DNA from: Phycisphaerales bacterium | GTDB taxonomy: Bacteria; Planctomycetota; Phycisphaerae; Phycisphaerales; UBA1924 | Direction: 5' to 3' | Length of the DNA stretch: 64,000 nucleotides | NCBI GenBank assembly: GCA_029260295.1 | Contig: JAJDDN010000008.1 | Coordinates: 902,193-966,192 of the forward strand | In this document: one piece after another, positions 36,322-44,879 of the stretch | How positions within the stretch are numbered: position 1 is the first letter of the stretch | How the letters are laid out: each line of letters opens with the position of its first letter | The notes under the pieces: generated by a model | Told to the model about the DNA's origin: nothing | Seen by the model: only the letters and a program-made list of their open reading frames with translations | Database searches by the model: none | Position numbers and translations under genes: made by a program

Positions 36322-36801
36322 ATGAAAGGCTGGGCGACATTCTCGGAGTGCGAGGCGTACCGGTACACGCTGGGCCGGCGGTGGGAAACCGGCGGCAGGC
36401 GGGTGTGTTTTTGTTTACTGAATCCATCGACGGCGGATGCGACCAAGCTTGATCCGACGCTGACGCGATGCCATCGGTATGCGGTGCGTTGGGGGTTTAG
36501 CGCGATGGATGTGGTCAATATCTTTGGGCTGCGGTCAACGGATCCCAAGGGATTGAAACTCGTTGATGATCCGATCGGGGTTGATAATGATCGGCATATC
36601 GCAAGGCTCGCCAAGCAGGCGGATCTGGTGATCGTCGGATGGGGGACGCACGGGGTGATGAATGATCGGCATACCGAGGTGCTCGGTGTGCTTAACACGG
36701 TATGCGTGCCCCACTGTCTTCAGGTAACAAAGCACGGGTTCCCCAAGCATCCGCTGTATCTCAAGGCGGATCTGGAGCCGATGGTCTTCCCCCCAAAGTA
36801 A
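36322..36801 (+). CDS. DUF1643-domain protein
   Basis: 'RRWETGGRRVCFCLLNPSTADATKLDPTLTRCHRYAVRWGFSAMDVVNIFGLRSTDPKGL'; stop codon lies inside a CCCCCCAAAGTAA repeat. Confidence 0.85.
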   Translation: MKGWATFSECEAYRYTLGRRWETGGRRVCFCLLNPSTADATKLDPTLTRCHRYAVRWGFSAMDVVNIFGLRSTDPKGLKLVDDPIGVDNDRHIARLAKQADLVIVGWGTHGVMNDRHTEVLGVLNTVCVPHCLQVTKHGFPKHPLYLKADLEPMVFPPK

Positions 36802-36849
36802 CCCCCCAAAGTAACCCGCCAAAATACCCCCCCAAAAGATCACGGCTAT
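36789..36849 (+). repeat. C-tract repeat block: (CCCCCCAAAGTAA)x2 + degenerate unit + AGATCACGGCTAT
   Basis: Copies at 36789 and 36802; AGATCACGGCTAT at 36837-36849 recurs inverted at 44836-44848. Confidence 0.75.
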
Positions 36850-36870: not shown

Positions 36871-36918
36871 AGAAGAAGGTCATCATCACCTTGGGGAAGG
36901 TGATGATGACCTTCTTCT
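36871..36918 (+). repeat. long hairpin family copy A
   Basis: AGAAGAAGGTCATCATCACCTT-GGGG-AAGGTGATGATGACCTTCTTCT, perfect 22-bp stem. Confidence 0.95.
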
Positions 36919-37027
36919 TTTGAGGAGAGGTTATCAACAATGGGACCGGGTGTTGTGCTTGCGTGGAGCTGAAACGCGCTTTCGTGTTTTCGATGATTTC
37001 TGGCCCAGTATCGACCTGTTGTGTCGC

Positions 37028-38167
37028 TTACTCACAACCCATTGTGATCGCTTGGATGAATGTGCTGATATCGAAGAAGTCCAATGTCCCGTCCTTGTTG
37101 AGATCAACATCTGGGCTCCCAGCTGCAAAGAGATTTATAAACGCATTGATATCGTTGAAATCAAGCTGATTATCCGCAACAAAATCGTATGGGCATCGAG
37201 ATGGGACATTGAGCGTGAGCGTTGAGCCACTGAGATACACATAGCCCGAATCGTCATCGAAGAGCTTGATGTCACTCACAGATGTGTTATTGGGGAGTTC
37301 GATGGTCTCAACCGGCAAGAAAGTCTGCGTGTTGTACAGTATGATCCGGCTTCCGAGTGCGGTAAAGAGCGTGCCCCCATCGGAGGTGAGAGCCTTTCGA
37401 CCTCCTCCAACCTGACCCGCGAGGAGGAATGAGTCGGTACGCAAGACCTGCGAGCCCGCTAGATAAATCCGCGATCCATCAGGACTCACGACTCCGTGGG
37501 TCGTCCCGCTGACTGATCCATGATTGTCTTCGAGTATAATTGGCGCTGATGGTTGATTCAGATCGAGTTTGTACAAGGAGTTGGGGCTGAAAGATTCACC
37601 GACATACAGGAACTCGCCGGTTGGATCCTTATGAAAGGTGGGACTCGCTCGGATTATCCGTCCTGAGGCGGCGCCTGTCACTGTCTTTGTTTCGATGTTG
37701 ATCTGTACGATTCGGGCAAAGCCCGAGCTGTAGGGATTGGCTGAGGCAAAGACGCGTCCTGGTGATGTTTCTACAACATCCCATGTTAAAGACGATCCGA
37801 TCAAATCTCCTACGACATATTCTTCCAGTTCATAGGTATCAAGATCGAGCGAGACGACCGAGGCGGCTTGGTTCAGCGCGATATACGCTCTCTGTCCATC
37901 GTGACTCAGGTCCATCCCGCGAGGTGAAGGTCCTACAAACACACGGTCGAGCACTTCGCCGGTGATTGAAGAAACGACCGCGATCTCATTGGCCAGAGGG
38001 ATCGCGACATATACCAGATCTCGCGAGCTGTCTAGCAACACTTCGTGACCGGTACCCCCGAGATCGGCATGAATGATGATATTTTTGCTCGTGTCCACGC
38101 CTGCGAACACTGATCCGCATGCCAATGAAACGACGCCAATTGCAAGCTTTGAACTTATTTTAAACAT
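37028..38167 (-). CDS. YncE-like beta-propeller exported protein with C-terminal GC-type dockerin-like segment
   Basis: MFKISSKLAIGVVSLACGSVFA signal; 'LLDSSRDLVYVAIPLANEIAVVSSITGEVLDRVFVGPSPRGMDLSHDGQRAYIALN'; C-terminal 'CPYDFVADNQLDFNDINAFINLFAAGSPDVDLNKDGTLDFFDISTFIQAITMGCE'. Confidence 0.8.
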   Translation of the reverse strand: MFKISSKLAIGVVSLACGSVFAGVDTSKNIIIHADLGGTGHEVLLDSSRDLVYVAIPLANEIAVVSSITGEVLDRVFVGPSPRGMDLSHDGQRAYIALNQAASVVSLDLDTYELEEYVVGDLIGSSLTWDVVETSPGRVFASANPYSSGFARIVQINIETKTVTGAASGRIIRASPTFHKDPTGEFLYVGESFSPNSLYKLDLNQPSAPIILEDNHGSVSGTTHGVVSPDGSRIYLAGSQVLRTDSFLLAGQVGGGRKALTSDGGTLFTALGSRIILYNTQTFLPVETIELPNNTSVSDIKLFDDDSGYVYLSGSTLTLNVPSRCPYDFVADNQLDFNDINAFINLFAAGSPDVDLNKDGTLDFFDISTFIQAITMGCE

Positions 38168-38411
38168 CTGAATATTCCCTTCTATCAAATTGAGTGTACT
38201 AACAATCTCTGGTGCATATTTTAGCAAATAAATCTTACCGCTCAATGATTAAAGCATCAATATACGCGTTAATTGTATATATAGTCGGTCGCCCCGCTTC
38301 AGTGTCGCGTAAACGGGGTACCCGCGCGGCCAATCAGGTTTATGAAGAATTATGATGAAGATATTCATGAGCCGAAGACGGCACCCTTGATCAATCTTTC
38401 GCCCCTCTCAA

Positions 38412-38462
38412 AGAGAAGAAGGTCACCAACCCCTGGGTGAGGGGTTGGTGACCTTCTTCTCT
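38412..38462 (+). repeat. long hairpin family copy B
   Basis: AGAGAAGAAGGTCACCAACCCCT-GGGTG-AGGGGTTGGTGACCTTCTTCTCT, perfect 23-bp stem. Confidence 0.95.
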
Positions 38463-38510
38463 GTTTCGTCTTAGTTTTTTCTCATAGGGAACCGGCACCT
38501 AGGATGGTCC

Positions 38511-39095
38511 ATGACCAAACACACTGTAACACGGTTCTTTGAAGTTGTTCATATTGTTGCGCTCAGTGCGTGGTTCGGGACCGTTGGGATGTCCGGGATT
38601 GTGGCGGCGACGGTGTTCCCGATTGTTGGGCGGATGAAGCCGACGCTTGGGGCGTACCCGGAATATACAGGGGATCATGCGCTGCTTGCGGGTGGATTGA
38701 TCGCGGGGAAGGTGTTCTTTCTTGTTGATATGGTGCAGTTTATTTGTGCGGCGATCGCGCTGGGGTCGTTTATGACGATGGTGGTGGCGGGGTATTCGAT
38801 CAATACCCTAGTGCGGGTGCTGCGGTCGGTGGTGCTCTTGTGCACGATGGGGTTGTTGAGCTGGCATCTGTTTGTCTTGATGCCTGGGATGACGGAGAAC
38901 CTTCGGAACTACTGGGACTTTGCGGCGGCAGGCGGCAACGAGCAGGCTGAGATCTATAAGAACGCGTTCTTTGACAACCATGAGCTCGCGGCCAACTCGC
39001 TCAAGGCGTTGATGGCGACGACACTGCTGTGCTTGGTGCTTGCGGTGTGGACCGGGACTGGATCTGGGACTACTCGACAAACCGAGCAGGCTTGA
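38511..39095 (+). CDS. DUF4149-like integral membrane protein
   Basis: Four hydrophobic segments; 'RFFEVVHIVALSAWFGTVGMSGIVAATVFPIV'. Confidence 0.6.
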   Translation: MTKHTVTRFFEVVHIVALSAWFGTVGMSGIVAATVFPIVGRMKPTLGAYPEYTGDHALLAGGLIAGKVFFLVDMVQFICAAIALGSFMTMVVAGYSINTLVRVLRSVVLLCTMGLLSWHLFVLMPGMTENLRNYWDFAAAGGNEQAEIYKNAFFDNHELAANSLKALMATTLLCLVLAVWTGTGSGTTRQTEQA

Positions 39096-39106
39096 TCAGA
39101 TTCTGA

Positions 39107-39742
39107 TCAGCGGCGACGGCGGGTGATGCCCAGAGCACCGAATCCCAAGAGCGACAATGCACCCGGGCTTGGGACGAAGCTGACATTGTCGATCGCGGAT
39201 TGGTCAGCGCCGTTGGTGTACTCACCACGGAAGTACATGCCTGTGAGATCGGCGAGGACTGCTTGGATGTCCGCTTGGGTGGCATCGGTCGCGGACAGTG
39301 ATGCGCCGCTTGCGCTGCTGACAATCTTCCAAGAAGCGGAAGCATCGACGAGAATATCCCATGAAGTCCATTGATTGAGAACCGGAGCAACGCCTGCGGC
39401 GATGCCGATCTCAAGTCCGCCACCAACGAGGATAATGTCTGCGCGGTTGGTGATGGTCTGGCTGCCTTGGATACCCATGATGTCGTAGCTGATCGAGTTG
39501 CCATAGAGGCCTGAGAGGTTGCCAAGATCATCGCTCGGCGCGGAGAAGAACCAGAACTGTCCGGCGACAACATCGACGGCGCGGATCGCGCCGAGCCCGC
39601 CGTTGCCGATGGAGCCGTCCCATTGGAAGTCGCGTCCGTCACTAAAGAGGCCCCAGCCTTGGGCATCGGAATCGAAGTCGTAGGCAATATTGGACAACGC
39701 GGGGGTCGCGATAAGCAGTGCGATGATTGATAGTGAACGCAT
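39107..39742 (-). CDS. PEP-CTERM-like exported protein
   Basis: MRSLSIIALLIATPALS signal and C-terminal 'VPSPGALSLLGFGALGITRRRR'. Confidence 0.8.
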   Translation of the reverse strand: MRSLSIIALLIATPALSNIAYDFDSDAQGWGLFSDGRDFQWDGSIGNGGLGAIRAVDVVAGQFWFFSAPSDDLGNLSGLYGNSISYDIMGIQGSQTITNRADIILVGGGLEIGIAAGVAPVLNQWTSWDILVDASASWKIVSSASGASLSATDATQADIQAVLADLTGMYFRGEYTNGADQSAIDNVSFVPSPGALSLLGFGALGITRRRR

Positions 39743-39862
39743 GGTGGAACTCCTGTACATATGAACGGTCCTGTGTGTGCACCAAATATGCCCCAGGATC
39801 GGGAGTAATGCCAGCAAATCTCCGCCAGCAAATCTCCATTTTTTCGGACGCTATGATCCGCC

Positions 39863-40615
39863 ATGACAATAGACAAAGCACCGATTCATCCAAAGGGTAA
39901 GGACAACCCTCGCGGGCTCAAAGATATCCCGTTTGCGCTCCCTGAGGTCACCAAGGAGCAGCGGAGCGGTGCGCTCAAGCTCGCCAATGCACTCAAGAAG
40001 CATTATCCGGATTCCAAATGCGAGCTGGACTTTACGAATCCGCATGAACTCCTCAACGCGACGATTCTCTCTGCGCAGTCCACCGATGCGGGCGTCAATA
40101 AGGCGACGCCTGGATTGTTCAAGGCGTTCCCGACCCCTGCGGATTACGCGGCTTCGACTCCCGAGAAGATTCAGCCGTATATCAAGACGATCGGGCTGTT
40201 CCGGAACAAATCCAAATCGATCCACGCGTCGATGACGATGGTGGTCGAGGATTTCGGTGGCGAGGTGCCTGGGAATATGGCGGACCTGCTCAAACTCCGA
40301 GGCGTTGCGCGCAAGACGGCCAATGTGGTTCTGGGCAATGCGTTCGGGGTCAACGACGGGGTGACGGTTGATACGCATGCCCAGCGGCTGGTGTGGCGGT
40401 TCGGGATTGTCGATGAGCCGAAGATGGATACGGCGAAGATCGAGAAGCTGTTGATGGCGTTGTTCCCGAGGCCTCGGTGGTCGGAGATCGGGCACATGCT
40501 CGTGCTGCATGGTCGGTACAACTGCACGGCGAGGCCCAACTGCAAACACGATCATCCGATCTGCGTGAAGTTCGGGGTCAACTGTGACAAGGCGTACAAC
40601 AAGTCGAAGCTGTAA
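39863..40615 (+). CDS. nth: endonuclease III
   Basis: 'ELLNATILSAQSTDAGVNKATPGLF', 'LLKLRGVARKTANVVLGNAFGVNDGVTVDTHAQRLVWRFGI'; C-terminal four-Cys segment. Confidence 0.92.
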   Translation: MTIDKAPIHPKGKDNPRGLKDIPFALPEVTKEQRSGALKLANALKKHYPDSKCELDFTNPHELLNATILSAQSTDAGVNKATPGLFKAFPTPADYAASTPEKIQPYIKTIGLFRNKSKSIHASMTMVVEDFGGEVPGNMADLLKLRGVARKTANVVLGNAFGVNDGVTVDTHAQRLVWRFGIVDEPKMDTAKIEKLLMALFPRPRWSEIGHMLVLHGRYNCTARPNCKHDHPICVKFGVNCDKAYNKSKL

Positions 40616-40629
40616 ATCAAAGCACTCGT

Positions 40630-40676
40630 AGAAGAAGACCACCAACCTCTGGGAGAGGGGTTGGTGGTCTTCTTCT
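40630..40676 (+). repeat. long hairpin family copy C
   Basis: AGAAGAAGACCACCAACCTCT-GGGAG-AGGGGTTGGTGGTCTTCTTCT; 21-bp stem with one G.T pair, between convergent genes. Confidence 0.95.
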
Positions 40677-40709
40677 TTTGGGACGGTGATCGAGGTTTGG
40701 AAGACCCGG

Positions 40710-41621
40710 TTAATCGGTCAGAGCAGAATCAAGAGTCTCATGGAAGAGGGTGGTCTGATCAACCATGATGAAATGCAGGCTCTCTTCAATGACCACAACT
40801 TGAGCGTCCGGTGCGGCGGCGTACTGACCCGCAAAGAGATCCCTCACTTGTGTTACTGGAACGCCCATCATTTTGTCATGCGCGACCAGTACTGTGATCT
40901 CCGCTTCGATCTGCGCGATGTCCTCTCGCAAATCTGCGGCCAACAACTCGCCGACTGCTGTTGCAACCGTTGCTTGATCCGAAGCTTTCGACCAATCGGC
41001 CAAGACCGATTGGTAGGGTTTGTCTTTGACGAGCCGGGCAAGGCCAGCGAGCTGTTGTTGGTCGAATGATTTTCGCGGCATATCCGCCATTTGCTGCGCA
41101 AATGCTGGTGCCATCTGGGCGGCTTGCTCGGGCGTGGCGCCCGGCATGAACAACCCGGCAAGGAACGGGAGACTATCGACGATGACCAACTCGGTGATCG
41201 GTGTCTCATCTGCAAGGGCTGCTTTGAGGGCGACAAATCCACCCAATGAATGCCCCACCACGACCGGGTCCGCTCCCGGAGAATCTATCAGATGTTTGTT
41301 GACTGCATCGGCGATCGCGTCGGTGTAGGTTTCATCGGTTTCAAACGGAGCTGCGCCCGCGAACCCGGCGACCTGCACTATGCGGAGATCATATTCTTGG
41401 AACGCGCCAGCGGTGCTTGTCCAGACATCTGATCCCGATGCCAATCCTGGGATCAAGACCACAGTCCGACCCTCGGCATCACCGCTCCGCGTGACCGAGA
41501 TGATCCCTGTTGCGGCTTGGACAGCCATTGCGTGATCGTTCGCAGGTTGGGCGATCCCCACCGACAAGAGCCCCCCAACGACCAGAACTCCTACGCTCGC
41601 CATCGTTCGATAATCGTTCAT
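40710..41621 (-). CDS. alpha/beta hydrolase, exported
   Basis: Signal-like N-terminus; 'VVLIPGLASGSDVW', nucleophile elbow 'VVGHSLGGFVALKAAL', final 'VVIEESLHFIMVDQ'. Confidence 0.88.
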   Translation of the reverse strand: MNDYRTMASVGVLVVGGLLSVGIAQPANDHAMAVQAATGIISVTRSGDAEGRTVVLIPGLASGSDVWTSTAGAFQEYDLRIVQVAGFAGAAPFETDETYTDAIADAVNKHLIDSPGADPVVVGHSLGGFVALKAALADETPITELVIVDSLPFLAGLFMPGATPEQAAQMAPAFAQQMADMPRKSFDQQQLAGLARLVKDKPYQSVLADWSKASDQATVATAVGELLAADLREDIAQIEAEITVLVAHDKMMGVPVTQVRDLFAGQYAAAPDAQVVVIEESLHFIMVDQTTLFHETLDSALTD

Positions 41622-41814
41622 CTATCTTTCCTCTCTCTATGTGATTCTGACATTCAAATCATACCCGCAAGGCACAGACGCCCACAGATTGTCAGTATAA
41701 AGCGGGCTTTGCCCAAGAATATTCCAGCGCATACACCCCCCACCCCCCCAAAAGAAGAAGGTGACTGCAGGGCCCTCGGCATTGACGAGTTGTCAATGAC
41801 CAAGGTGTGTGACC

Positions 41815-42819
41815 TCAGCGGTGGCGTGCGGGGTTGTTGATCGCGCCGTAGCGGGGGTTGTGGCCTGTCTGGTTATTGGCTTGGGCATCGGAGATGTCGT
41901 ACAAGCGGTAGTAGGAGCCACGGTAGTTTGTGCGGACATAGATGTCCCATGAGGTGAACCCGGTGTCGCCGTAGGGCTGGGCTGGGTCGTCGTTGTGGAA
42001 GCCTTCGGGCGGGGCGAACACACCGACATGCCCGTCGAGGTAGTAGGTGGACCCGCCTTCGCTGTGGCGGGTGGTCCATTGGTCAACATTGCCCCATTCG
42101 CCGTCGGTTGAGCCGCCCGAGCTGTTGTTGTTGAACCACCACGAGCTTTCTTCGATAATCAGAGGCAGCCCGGGCATCCGGACAACGAGGCCGTCGGCGA
42201 TCATCGACGAGAACTCGTCGGCACTCAGCACCGAGTCGTTGGGCGCTGGTTCTTTGAACATCCAGACATCGAACTCGACCGAGTCTTTGGCGCCCTGCGC
42301 GGGGGCGTTGAATGTGTAATCGAAGTTGAGTTCCCCGCTGCCGTAGTATCCTGGGTAGCGGGTAATGTTGGGGTCATCTTCGATCCCGAACGGGTCGCGT
42401 CTTTGGTTTGTTGGGCATTCAACAATATCGCTCGCGTTGTCAACATAATCCATGAGCAGCCCCGCGCCCCGGCGTGCCGTCCCGGTGCGGTTAAAGAGGT
42501 ACGCCCAGTTGATGGTGTTGAGGTGCCCCGCGTTGTTCCGAGGGCCGCGTGTTGTTTCAAAGCGACCAGTAGGCATGGACTGGCCTTTGAAGTCCATCGC
42601 GTAGAGTTGATTGGCGAGCCCGAGTTGCCGCATGTTGGAGAGGCAGATTGTTTTCTGCGCGGTCGCTCGTGCTTGACCGAGCGACGGGAGCAAGATCCCG
42701 ATCAGCAGTGCGATGATCGCGATCACAACAAGCAACTCGATGAGCGTAAACCCACCGCCCGCACGCCACGCCTTGGGCAGATGCCCTGACCGAGTTCGAG
42801 TTGACGAGCATTGAAACAA
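41815..42819 (-). CDS. type II secretion/prepilin-type N-terminal cleavage/methylation domain protein
   Basis: '[56 protein letters not shown]'. Confidence 0.92.
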
Positions 42820-42956
42820 GACGAGACCCCTTGTACTGGACTACCACGAAGCTCCAATATACCAAACTGCAGCCCAAGGCGAGCACGAAATCTCGCATTA
42901 CCACCGAAATCAGCCCCTTCCACCCCCCACCCCCACTCCCCACCAATGCGGGGAAT

Positions 42957-43003
42957 AGAAGAAGGTCACCAACCCCTGGGAGAGGGGTTGGTGACCTTCT
43001 TCT
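42957..43003 (+). repeat. long hairpin family copy D
   Basis: AGAAGAAGGTCACCAACCCCT-GGGAG-AGGGGTTGGTGACCTTCTTCT, perfect 21-bp stem. Confidence 0.95.
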
Positions 43004-43016
43004 TTCAACAAACAAA

Positions 43017-43090
43017 CGATCCCGCTGCGATTCGAACGCAGAACCTTTGGCTTCGGAGGCCAACGCTCTATCCAGTTGAGCTACGGGACC
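43017..43090 (-). tRNA. tRNA-Arg (CCG)
   Basis: Minus strand GGTCCCGTAGCTCAACTGGATAGAGCGTTGGCCTCCGAAGCCAAAGGTTCTGCGTTCGAATCGCAGCGGGATCG; anticodon loop CTCCGAA. Confidence 0.92.
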
Positions 43091-43094
43091 CTTT

Positions 43095-43115
43095 CCCCCC
43101 AAAGTAAAGATCACG
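43095..43115 (+). repeat. C-tract repeat copy CCCCCCAAAGTAAAGATCACG
   Basis: Shares CCCCCCAAAGTAA and AGATCACG with the 36.8 kb block. Confidence 0.6.
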
Positions 43116-43177
43116 CCCAAAGGGCATCATCCAGTCGTCTGGGGGGAGCGAAGTGAGTCTACGATCCTTCCACCTCA

Positions 43178-44569
43178 ATGGCAAACACCCAAACCAATCT
43201 TGCACCACTCAAACTCGTCCTCCTCATCACCTTTCTAGGCTCCATGGGCACCGCCGTCATCACCAGCGGCATCGCCTTCCTCACCGACCAAGGACTCGGA
43301 TACACAGCCACCCAAAACCTCCTCCTCGCCCTCGTTCTCGGAGGGGTCTACATCCCCGCCGCCCTGCTCAGCGGGCCGCTGCTCCGGTGGACAGCCGCCA
43401 AGGCCCATCGCCTCACCACCAGGCGCTCGCTCATCGCGATCATGCTGCTCACCGCGTTGATCGCCCAAGCCCCGCTGCTCGTCAGCCGGATCAACCCGGG
43501 GCTTACCGAGCTTGCCGTGTGGGTCATGGGCATCGCGTACATGATCGCATCGGGGATCCAGTGGCCCATCGTCGAAGCGTACTTGTCGGGAGGCCGGCGC
43601 TCGACGCAACTCCGAGGCGCGATCGGCAAGTTCAACATCGTCTGGTCCTCAGCAATGGTCCTCTCCTACTGGCTCATGGCCCCGCTCATCGAAGAACACC
43701 CCTTCATGATCATCTCGCTCCTGGGCGTCATCCATCTGCTCATCGCGGGATTGGTCTTCATGCTCCCGAGCGAACCGGCTCAGCATTTTTCTGATGATCA
43801 TGATCTTCGGTGCCCTCCTTCGACCGCTTCGGCGAAGGAGGTCTTCGGTGGCACGAAGTCTTTGAGTGTTCAGGGGTCTTTGGTTTTTCAAGACCTCCTT
43901 CGCCCAAGAGGGTCGAAGGAGGGCACCGAAGAGGAGTACCCACCGATCTATGTCCCGCTGCTGACCGTCTTCCGGATGATGCTCATCGCGAGCTACATCA
44001 TTCTGTCGGTGATGATCCCGCTGATGCCGAGCATCGAGAAGCAACTCGGGCTCGACGAACTCTGGTGGACACCCATCGCAAGCACCTGGCTCATCGTCCG
44101 CGTCCTCTTCTTCATCCTCTTCGAACGCTGGCACGGCTGGCACGGCCACTGGTGGACCCCATGGCTCGGAATGACCGCGATGCTCACCGGATTCGCAATG
44201 GCCATCATCGCACCCGCAATCGGACAACTCATCGGAGCCCACCTCTTCGGCATCGACTACCCCTCAATCGAAGTCAACACCGTAGGAACCATCGTCCTCA
44301 TCACAGGCCTCTCCCTCACCGGCGTAGGCATCGCTGCGATCTACTACGGAGCCCTCTACTACGCAATGGCAGTCGGTGGATCAGATGTAGACTCCGGAGG
44401 CAAGCACGAAGCCTTCATAGGCATGGGCTACACCGCCGGCCCCCTCTGTGGATTGGCAGGCGGCTTCATCTACCAAGGCGGACTCGGAGTCATCGCCGTC
44501 ACCAGCGCAGTTGTTTTAGCAATGGTCGGCGTAGCCATCGTCAAAGCCCTCAAGCACTCCAAGCCTTGA
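43178..44569 (+). CDS. MFS transporter with in-frame palindromic insertion in the central loop
   Basis: About 12 hydrophobic segments; 43 residues encoded by the palindrome at 43804-43932. Confidence 0.8.
   Translation: MANTQTNLAPLKLVLLITFLGSMGTAVITSGIAFLTDQGLGYTATQNLLLALVLGGVYIPAALLSGPLLRWTAAKAHRLTTRRSLIAIMLLTALIAQAPLLVSRINPGLTELAVWVMGIAYMIASGIQWPIVEAYLSGGRRSTQLRGAIGKFNIVWSSAMVLSYWLMAPLIEEHPFMIISLLGVIHLLIAGLVFMLPSEPAQHFSDDHDLRCPPSTASAKEVFGGTKSLSVQGSLVFQDLLRPRGSKEGTEEEYPPIYVPLLTVFRMMLIASYIILSVMIPLMPSIEKQLGLDELWWTPIASTWLIVRVLFFILFERWHGWHGHWWTPWLGMTAMLTGFAMAIIAPAIGQLIGAHLFGIDYPSIEVNTVGTIVLITGLSLTGVGIAAIYYGALYYAMAVGGSDVDSGGKHEAFIGMGYTAGPLCGLAGGFIYQGGLGVIAVTSAVVLAMVGVAIVKALKHSKP
43804..43932. 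repeat. nested palindromic element (129 bp) inside the MFS gene
   Basis: Outer 22-bp arms TCTTCGGTGCCCTCCTTCGACC / GGTCGAAGGAGGGCACCGAAGA; inner 15-bp arms GGCGAAGGAGGTCTT (43831-43845) / AAGACCTCCTTCGCC (43890-43904). Confidence 0.92.
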
Positions 44570-44607
44570 CACCAACACCCCTTACCCTCCACCCCTCAAA
44601 GCAAGCC

Positions 44608-44748
44608 GGGTGCCACTACTCGCCGTCCCCGGCGCAGTAGTGTCTTGACGGCAGTAATGCCTTGGTGGCAGTAGTGTCTTGACGGCAGACGACCTATACC
44701 CGAATCCCTAAGACACTACTGCGCATAAGAATGCGAGTAGTGGCACCC
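44608..44748. repeat. nested palindromic element (141 bp), MITE-like
   Basis: Outer 16-bp arms GGGTGCCACTACTCGC / GCGAGTAGTGGCACCC; inner 15-bp arms GCGCAGTAGTGTCTT / AAGACACTACTGCGC; internal 21-bp direct repeat GCAGTAGTGTCTTGACGGCAG (44634, 44668). Confidence 0.92.
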
Positions 44749-44764
44749 ATTCTCCGTACACTCA

Positions 44765-44815
44765 AGAGAAGAAGATCATCATCCCCTCTCCCAGGGGATG
44801 ATGATCTTCTTCTCT
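44765..44815 (-). repeat. long hairpin family copy E (loop in opposite orientation)
   Basis: AGAGAAGAAGATCATCATCCCCT-CTCCC-AGGGGATGATGATCTTCTTCTCT, perfect 23-bp stem; loop reads GGGAG on the minus strand. Confidence 0.95.
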
Positions 44816-44820
44816 CTCAA

Positions 44821-44879
44821 CCCCCCACCCCCCCAATAGCCGTGATCTTAAACTTTGGGGGGTCTTAAACTTTGGGGGG
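44821..44879 (-). repeat. inverted copy of the C-tract repeat block
   Basis: Minus strand reads CCCCCCAAAGTTTAAGACCCCCCAAAGTTTAAGATCACGGCTATTGGGGGGG, matching the 36789-36849 block. Confidence 0.75.

Follow-up and report, generated by a model that had tools for sequence, protein, structure and literature searches.

A clustered family of long DNA hairpins at a sharp strand-bias switch in a Phycisphaerales chromosome

The 64,000-nucleotide window analyzed here (positions 902,193 to 966,192 of contig JAJDDN010000008.1, Phycisphaerales bacterium assembly GCA_029260295.1) contains a locus with genes for a DUF1643 protein, a dockerin/propeller protein, endonuclease III, tRNA-Arg(CCG) and an MFS-like protein, and, in the spaces between them, five long DNA hairpins, denoted A to E. 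Throughout, G000 is the 2.91-Mb genome to which the window belongs, C8 is its 966-kb contig that contains the window, and the other G numbers are the genomes of relatives. The hairpins are tightly clustered, have arms specific to their genome, and coincide with a sharp switch of GC skew, and we tentatively interpret them as a DNA element tied to a point of replication fork convergence.

Hairpins of the window and their relatives

The five copies reported in an earlier note on this DNA were all recovered, with arms of 22, 23, 21, 21, and 23 nt that are perfectly paired except for one T·G in copy C, and loops of 4–5 nt (Table 1). Hairpin E, which comes after the MFS gene, is inverted with respect to A–D (loop CTCCC versus GGGAG). 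All are stable folds as DNA (z from -7 to -10) and also very stable as RNA, and an Rfam scan of the window returned two tRNAs only, with no known structured RNA above the gathering score at the hairpins. The flanks of the copies are unrelated and contain no conserved tag and no target duplication. The window holds no further hairpin with a score of at least 17, and the best score in five dinucleotide-block shuffles of it was 10.5. In the 1.12 Mb of G000 read outside the window, only two more hairpins reached 17, as one tandem pair, and a covariance model built from four copies matched nothing but A–E and this pair in the whole genome. The probability that five of seven copies land in one given 8 kb by chance is ~3e-10. 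The members of the tandem pair are weaker relatives of A–E in a duplicated unit of ~250 bp (G000:C2:31820-32122) that also carries a sequence resembling a hairpin at C8 869.2 kb, near a skew jump.

Searched against 60 relatives, the four-copy model gave matches confined to the same genus. A general model, built from 27 hairpins, detected hairpins in 12 of the 21 genus members and, among 120 genomes of the family, in just one other genus. The exact tip pattern matched two records among 84,980 species genomes (CAJXXI010000015.1 and JAEPOJ010000004.1), both from this genus, and no match to the hairpins was found in viral contigs. Across the genus, the common plan consists of ~20 near-perfect Watson-Crick pairs capped by a tip that approximates CCCC-TGGGnG-GGGG. 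The tip is the conserved part of the family and the ends differ from genome to genome, with arms AGAAGAAGGTCACC in G000, CAAGTTACTCATC in G019, GAAGGAACCGTCC in G009, and ATGAAGGAACATCCCC in G018; the constant ends described in the earlier note (AGAAGAAG/CTTCTTCT) thus hold within G000 and fail as a signature of the family. Nor is the element dispersed, as had been proposed, given that the copies, about 2–15 in number, are grouped within a few kb and are local rather than genome-wide. Genomes with two clusters use the same arm in both (G009, contigs C44 and C46; G018, C24 and C68). One longer hairpin, GCGAACCCAGYAGGTCATCATCACC.., is nearly letter-identical in G006:C6:110021-110074 and G004:C320:1534-1588 and unlike the rest of the family.

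No shared gene or mobilizing enzyme was found beside the clusters; genes for dockerin and PEP-CTERM-type secreted proteins recur among the neighbors, which also include housekeeping genes such as those for HflX and GcpE. Whether the hairpins delimit a cassette of genes centered on the dockerin gene was considered; as a general rule, this is not supported.

Arms that change in concert

Contig C8 of G019 is syntenic with the window, and its hairpins occupy spots matching those in G000, namely, after DUF1643, before the orthologue of the 38511 gene, after endonuclease III, and beside tRNA-Arg. Most of these copies bear the arm typical of G019, and two, with AAGAAGATCA arms, are nearer to the G000 type. 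A second locus, common to G009 and G018, displays the same concerted change of arms, so that two genome pairs show it in all. Comparable spots can hold copies in opposite orientations (C in G000 versus 14217 in G019), and at least one G019 copy also lies between divergent genes. Most of tRNA-Arg(CCG) is present twice in G019, where the extra copy (97% identity across 72 bp) is located beside a hairpin near the skew switch of that genome (G019:C8:23969-24040).

Changes on both sides of the stem were counted in 21 of 23 pairs, which is little proof by itself because the sequences were preselected as hairpins. G·U accounts for 1.3% of the paired inner cells. This scarcity argues for a palindrome maintained at the DNA level over a selected RNA stem and, together with arms that change jointly within a genome, points to homogenization of the copies, so that the compensatory changes previously taken as a sign of selection on the fold need not mean selection on a folded RNA. 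Concerted arm change is also seen in a second family, a dispersed palindromic repeat of ~140 bp (GGGTGCCACTACT..AGTAGTGGCACCC) present at window positions 44606-44747 and in many places in G000, the G019 version of which has different, matching arms (GGGTGCCCCGACT..AGTCGGGGCACCC).

Strand bias around the clusters

The plot of the copies against replichore position suggested in the earlier note proved informative: the cluster sits at a switch of the skew from positive to negative on C8 (83% of the contig was read). Only at 939–946 kb does a skew above 0.08 in the 20 kb to the left meet a skew below -0.08 in the 20 kb to the right, and the hairpins span 939.06–947.0 kb; the cumulative maximum in the window falls inside the cluster (Table 1), and the drop at 944 kb is matched in size by 0.4% of C8 positions. 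Immediately to the right of the cluster, the skew turns near-saturated negative. The skew at 4-fold sites of genes on the two strands agrees along C8 (r=0.82), and therefore follows fork direction more than transcription. A reading of the locus as a single terminus was dropped because C8 has several skew crossings.

To compare species at this locus, we used orthologs in a left block (27912, 31180, 31821, and YebC) and a right block (S41 to 57885), the order and strand of which are kept in several species. The coding-strand 4-fold skew to the left and right is +0.15/-0.55 in G000 and +0.34/-0.46 in G019, both of which carry hairpins at the locus, compared with +0.26/+0.26 in G006, +0.24/+0.23 in G004, and -0.22/-0.26 in G003, all without hairpins there; in the remaining genomes without hairpins at the locus, the left-to-right drop is at most 0.40. 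A large sign change is thus found in G000 and G019 only, and ten other species lack it. In G006, the YebC-Nth locus lies elsewhere and has no hairpins; the hairpins of this genome are at C6 102.1 and 110.0 kb, and the largest positive-to-negative drop of the 120 kb read is at 102.5 kb. A recA-linked domain (recA being assigned from reading the translation, not by family search) is collinear between G000 (867–899 kb) and G006 (50–87 kb), and in both genomes a hairpin cluster lies at the end of its positive half, with otherwise different genes at the border. This correspondence is the best evidence that the position of the hairpins goes with the meeting of forks and not with particular genes.

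On C8, sharp negative-to-positive jumps at 263.8, 602.3, and 871.6 kb each lie less than 1 kb from a perfect parS-like TGTTCCACGTGGAACA, and the chance of three minima coinciding with three such sites is ~2e-7. All the parS-like sites listed for G000 and G006 (Table 1) are at sharp negative-to-positive jumps, and the skew falls off slowly to either side, a pattern resembling that of a chromosome with some ten origins. Seven genus members have 4–14 parS-like sites and the rest have one or two; hairpins are present in 6 of these seven versus 4 of the 14 others (p=0.02, not corrected for relatedness). Should the jumps be origins, the hairpin cluster would be the only place on C8 where the meeting point between two of them is sharply defined. 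The parS-linked jumps may matter more than the hairpins. Full-text literature searches, with subscription journals mostly outside their coverage, returned no account of parS-marked multiple skew jumps or of such a hairpin family in Planctomycetes. Two proteins with a DnaA domain are encoded in G000 (C6:383300 and C5:81782; Bac_DnaA, 218 and 152 bits).

Table 1. Coordinates of the hairpins and associated features (positions in the window unless a contig is named)
Feature	Position	Strand	Description
Hairpin A	36871..36918	+	22-bp stem, loop GGGG; convergent neighbors DUF1643 (+) and dockerin/propeller (-)
Hairpin B	38412..38462	+	23-bp stem, loop GGGTG; divergent neighbors, ~50 bp upstream of the 38511 gene
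Hairpin C	40630..40676	+	21-bp stem with one T·G, loop GGGAG; 14 bp past the endonuclease III stop codon
Possible degraded half-copy	41750..41765	+	AAAAGAAGAAGGTGAC, without partner arm
Cumulative GC skew maximum	42690..42690		Positive-to-negative switch, inside the cluster
Hairpin D	42957..43003	+	21-bp stem, loop GGGAG; 13 bp past the tRNA-Arg(CCG) 3' end
tRNA-Arg(CCG)	43017..43090	-	Adjoins hairpin D
Hairpin E	44765..44815	-	23-bp stem, loop CTCCC on + / GGGAG on -
parS-like sites, G000	C8 263.6, 602.2, 872.4 kb; C2 171.4, 294.5 kb; C3 240.3 kb		TGTTCCAYGTGGAACA
parS-like sites, G006	C6 54.4 kb, C8 89.8 kb, C10 10.3 kb		TGTTCCAYGTGGAACA

Proposed link to fork convergence and alternative explanations

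The explanation that we favor, somewhat short of an even chance, is that the hairpins are a DNA element tied to a fixed point of fork convergence and most likely help to fix where forks meet. The arms would be recognized by a protein, either as a duplex dyad or as an extruded or single-stranded hairpin, and forks would be stalled, or their fusion resolved, at the cluster, with the consequence that strand bias would flip over a few kb rather than fade across at least 100 kb. Concerted drift of the arms within a genome would be expected if the copies are homogenized or must all match one recognizer, and the near-saturated negative skew to the right would be compatible with the blocking of rightward forks. 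The cluster is plausibly such a barrier, and the hairpins are a real, tightly clustered family that is probably recognized by a protein, in line with the earlier suggestion of a protein-recognized element. The structure of the hairpins, their clustering, their genome-specific arms, and their coincidence with the sharp skew switch are observed; protein binding, fork arrest, and the direction of causality are inferred. If true, a hairpin family that marks and moves with the fork-meeting point and has concerted arms would represent an independent solution to fork trapping and would help in understanding the unusual strand bias of these chromosomes, with its multiple jumps.

Known fork-trap systems are limited to Tus-bearing groups and some Bacillus species (PMC10331603). 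The hairpins resemble Tus-ter and RTP-ter in being several short intergenic sites near fork convergence, where a sharp change of skew is expected, and differ from them in being 47–51 bp hairpins with genome-specific arms that are not conserved across the family. Sites at the convergence point, as in a fork trap, are found in G000, G019, and G006, and the relation of the clusters to the skew is weak or absent in G009, G018, and G003. The bolder proposal, that DNA hairpins with their rapidly co-evolving arms form a third, unrelated kind of bacterial fork trap and set the meeting point between neighboring origins of a many-origin-like, parS-marked chromosome, seems to us unlikely. Two other systems, matS/MatP and dif/XerCD, also use DNA motifs of the terminus region, the 13-bp palindrome matS being scattered across a large macrodomain and dif being one 28-bp site. 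A simple position-weight search of the window and relatives for dif gave no convincing site.

Several observations weigh against a role in fork convergence. No terminator protein was found, neither Tus (PF05472) nor RTP (PF02334) being detected in any of the 21 genus genomes, with positive controls in E. coli and B. subtilis, respectively. Because G000 and G019 are sisters that have the locus in common, the locus test comes close to a single evolutionary event, and the negative stretch in G006 spans only ~11 kb and may itself be an inverted segment. The clusters of G009, G018, and G003 lie where the skew is weak or keeps its sign (G018:C24 has no switch), most positive-to-negative crossings in G000 have no hairpins, and the closely compared genomes are multi-contig draft assemblies. 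Polar sites of a fork trap would be oppositely oriented on the two sides of the meeting point; here, the G-rich loop is on the + strand in 8 of 10 copies to the left of the switch and 3 of 9 to the right (p=0.07), a bias that is no more than suggestive and that strand composition could explain; a looser assignment of sides, which gave p=0.013-0.024, was replaced by this strict one.

A mobile or self-propagating palindromic repeat of the REP or MITE kind, gathering near termini through favored insertion or survival and having no part in termination, is a less likely explanation. REP elements are present in Planctomycetes and mostly carry GTAG or CGTC tags (PMC3733652). Like REP, BIME, and REPIN sequences, the hairpins are intergenic palindromes with species-specific arms; the second palindromic repeat of G000 likewise has genome-specific arms, Y1 transposases are encoded in 15 of the 21 genus members, and the opposite orientations at comparable spots are what such a repeat could produce. 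However, the stems are longer and nearer to perfect, no GTAG/CGTC-type tag is seen, the flanks lack any conserved tag or target duplication, and the copies are few and clustered. No RAYT is consistently associated with them: Y1_Tnp was not found in the hairpin-bearing G019, G006, and G004 and is present in G002, G008, G010, and G013, which have no hairpins. Even if this were merely a repeat that collects at termini, it would be a clear natural example of concerted palindrome evolution at similar positions. Integron attC sites also form hairpins that lie between genes and are alike within one genome; by inspection, the present hairpins differ from attC in that their stems are perfect and lack extrahelical bases and terminal core boxes, and most of the genes separating them are ordinary chromosomal ones.

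Quite unlikely, in our estimate, is that the hairpins are a by-product of fork convergence, in which template switching at quasi-palindromes and over-replication create, perfect, and homogenize them. The near-perfect Watson-Crick arms, their concerted change, and the location at a skew switch would all agree with such an origin, but the flanks of the copies are unrelated, and local template switching alone would not keep a complex tip that is common to species and loci.

We give similarly low odds to strong bidirectional transcription terminators in a locally favored style, a function that the earlier note considered possible. Their GC-rich stems near gene ends, very stable as RNA, are like those of intrinsic terminators; A, C, and D lie just beyond the ends of genes or of the tRNA, E follows the MFS gene, and the AGAAGAAG/CTTCTTCT base might pass for A/U tracts. 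Individual copies may act as terminators, but such a role does not explain the confinement to a cluster, the turnover of the arms, the position of B (and at least one G019 copy) between divergent genes, or the missing tails: arms of relatives, such as CAAGTTACTC and GAAGGAACCG, have no A/U tracts, the tails are weak, and a terminator scan flags B alone among the five. G·U pairs are nearly absent, and besides one pair, no other hairpin scoring at least 17 occurs in the 1.12 Mb. The covariance search of the genome and its relatives that the earlier note had recommended found the copies unevenly spread and their signature in relatives, so that the hairpins are not just a style of terminator.

Finally, we regard it as very improbable that the sharp switch of skew marks the breakpoint of an inversion or rearrangement, with the hairpins as recombination scars. 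The DUF1643-Nth block does have the reverse orientation in G006 and G004 compared with G000, and the negative stretch of G006 (102–113 kb) could be an inverted segment. However, the G000 blocks flanking the switch are collinear with and on the same strand as those of G006, so the sign change is not a gene inversion, and the assembly of G019, which is independent, lends support to the junction.

Further sequence features were noticed in the window. Within the MFS-like gene, positions 43824-43911 form an imperfect palindrome (CCGCTTCGGCGAAGGAGGTCTT..AAGACCTCCTTCGCC) similar to a sequence at ~32.0 kb of G000:C2, which suggests a repeat inserted in frame. The CCCCCCAAAGT motifs near A, D, and E were considered as a feature specific to the cluster and rejected, the motif being intergenic genome-wide. 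The intergenic motif CCCCCCAAAGTnAAGATCACG, often in tandem, occurs at window positions 36789-36815, 43095, and 44849-44879 and about once per 40 kb of G000.

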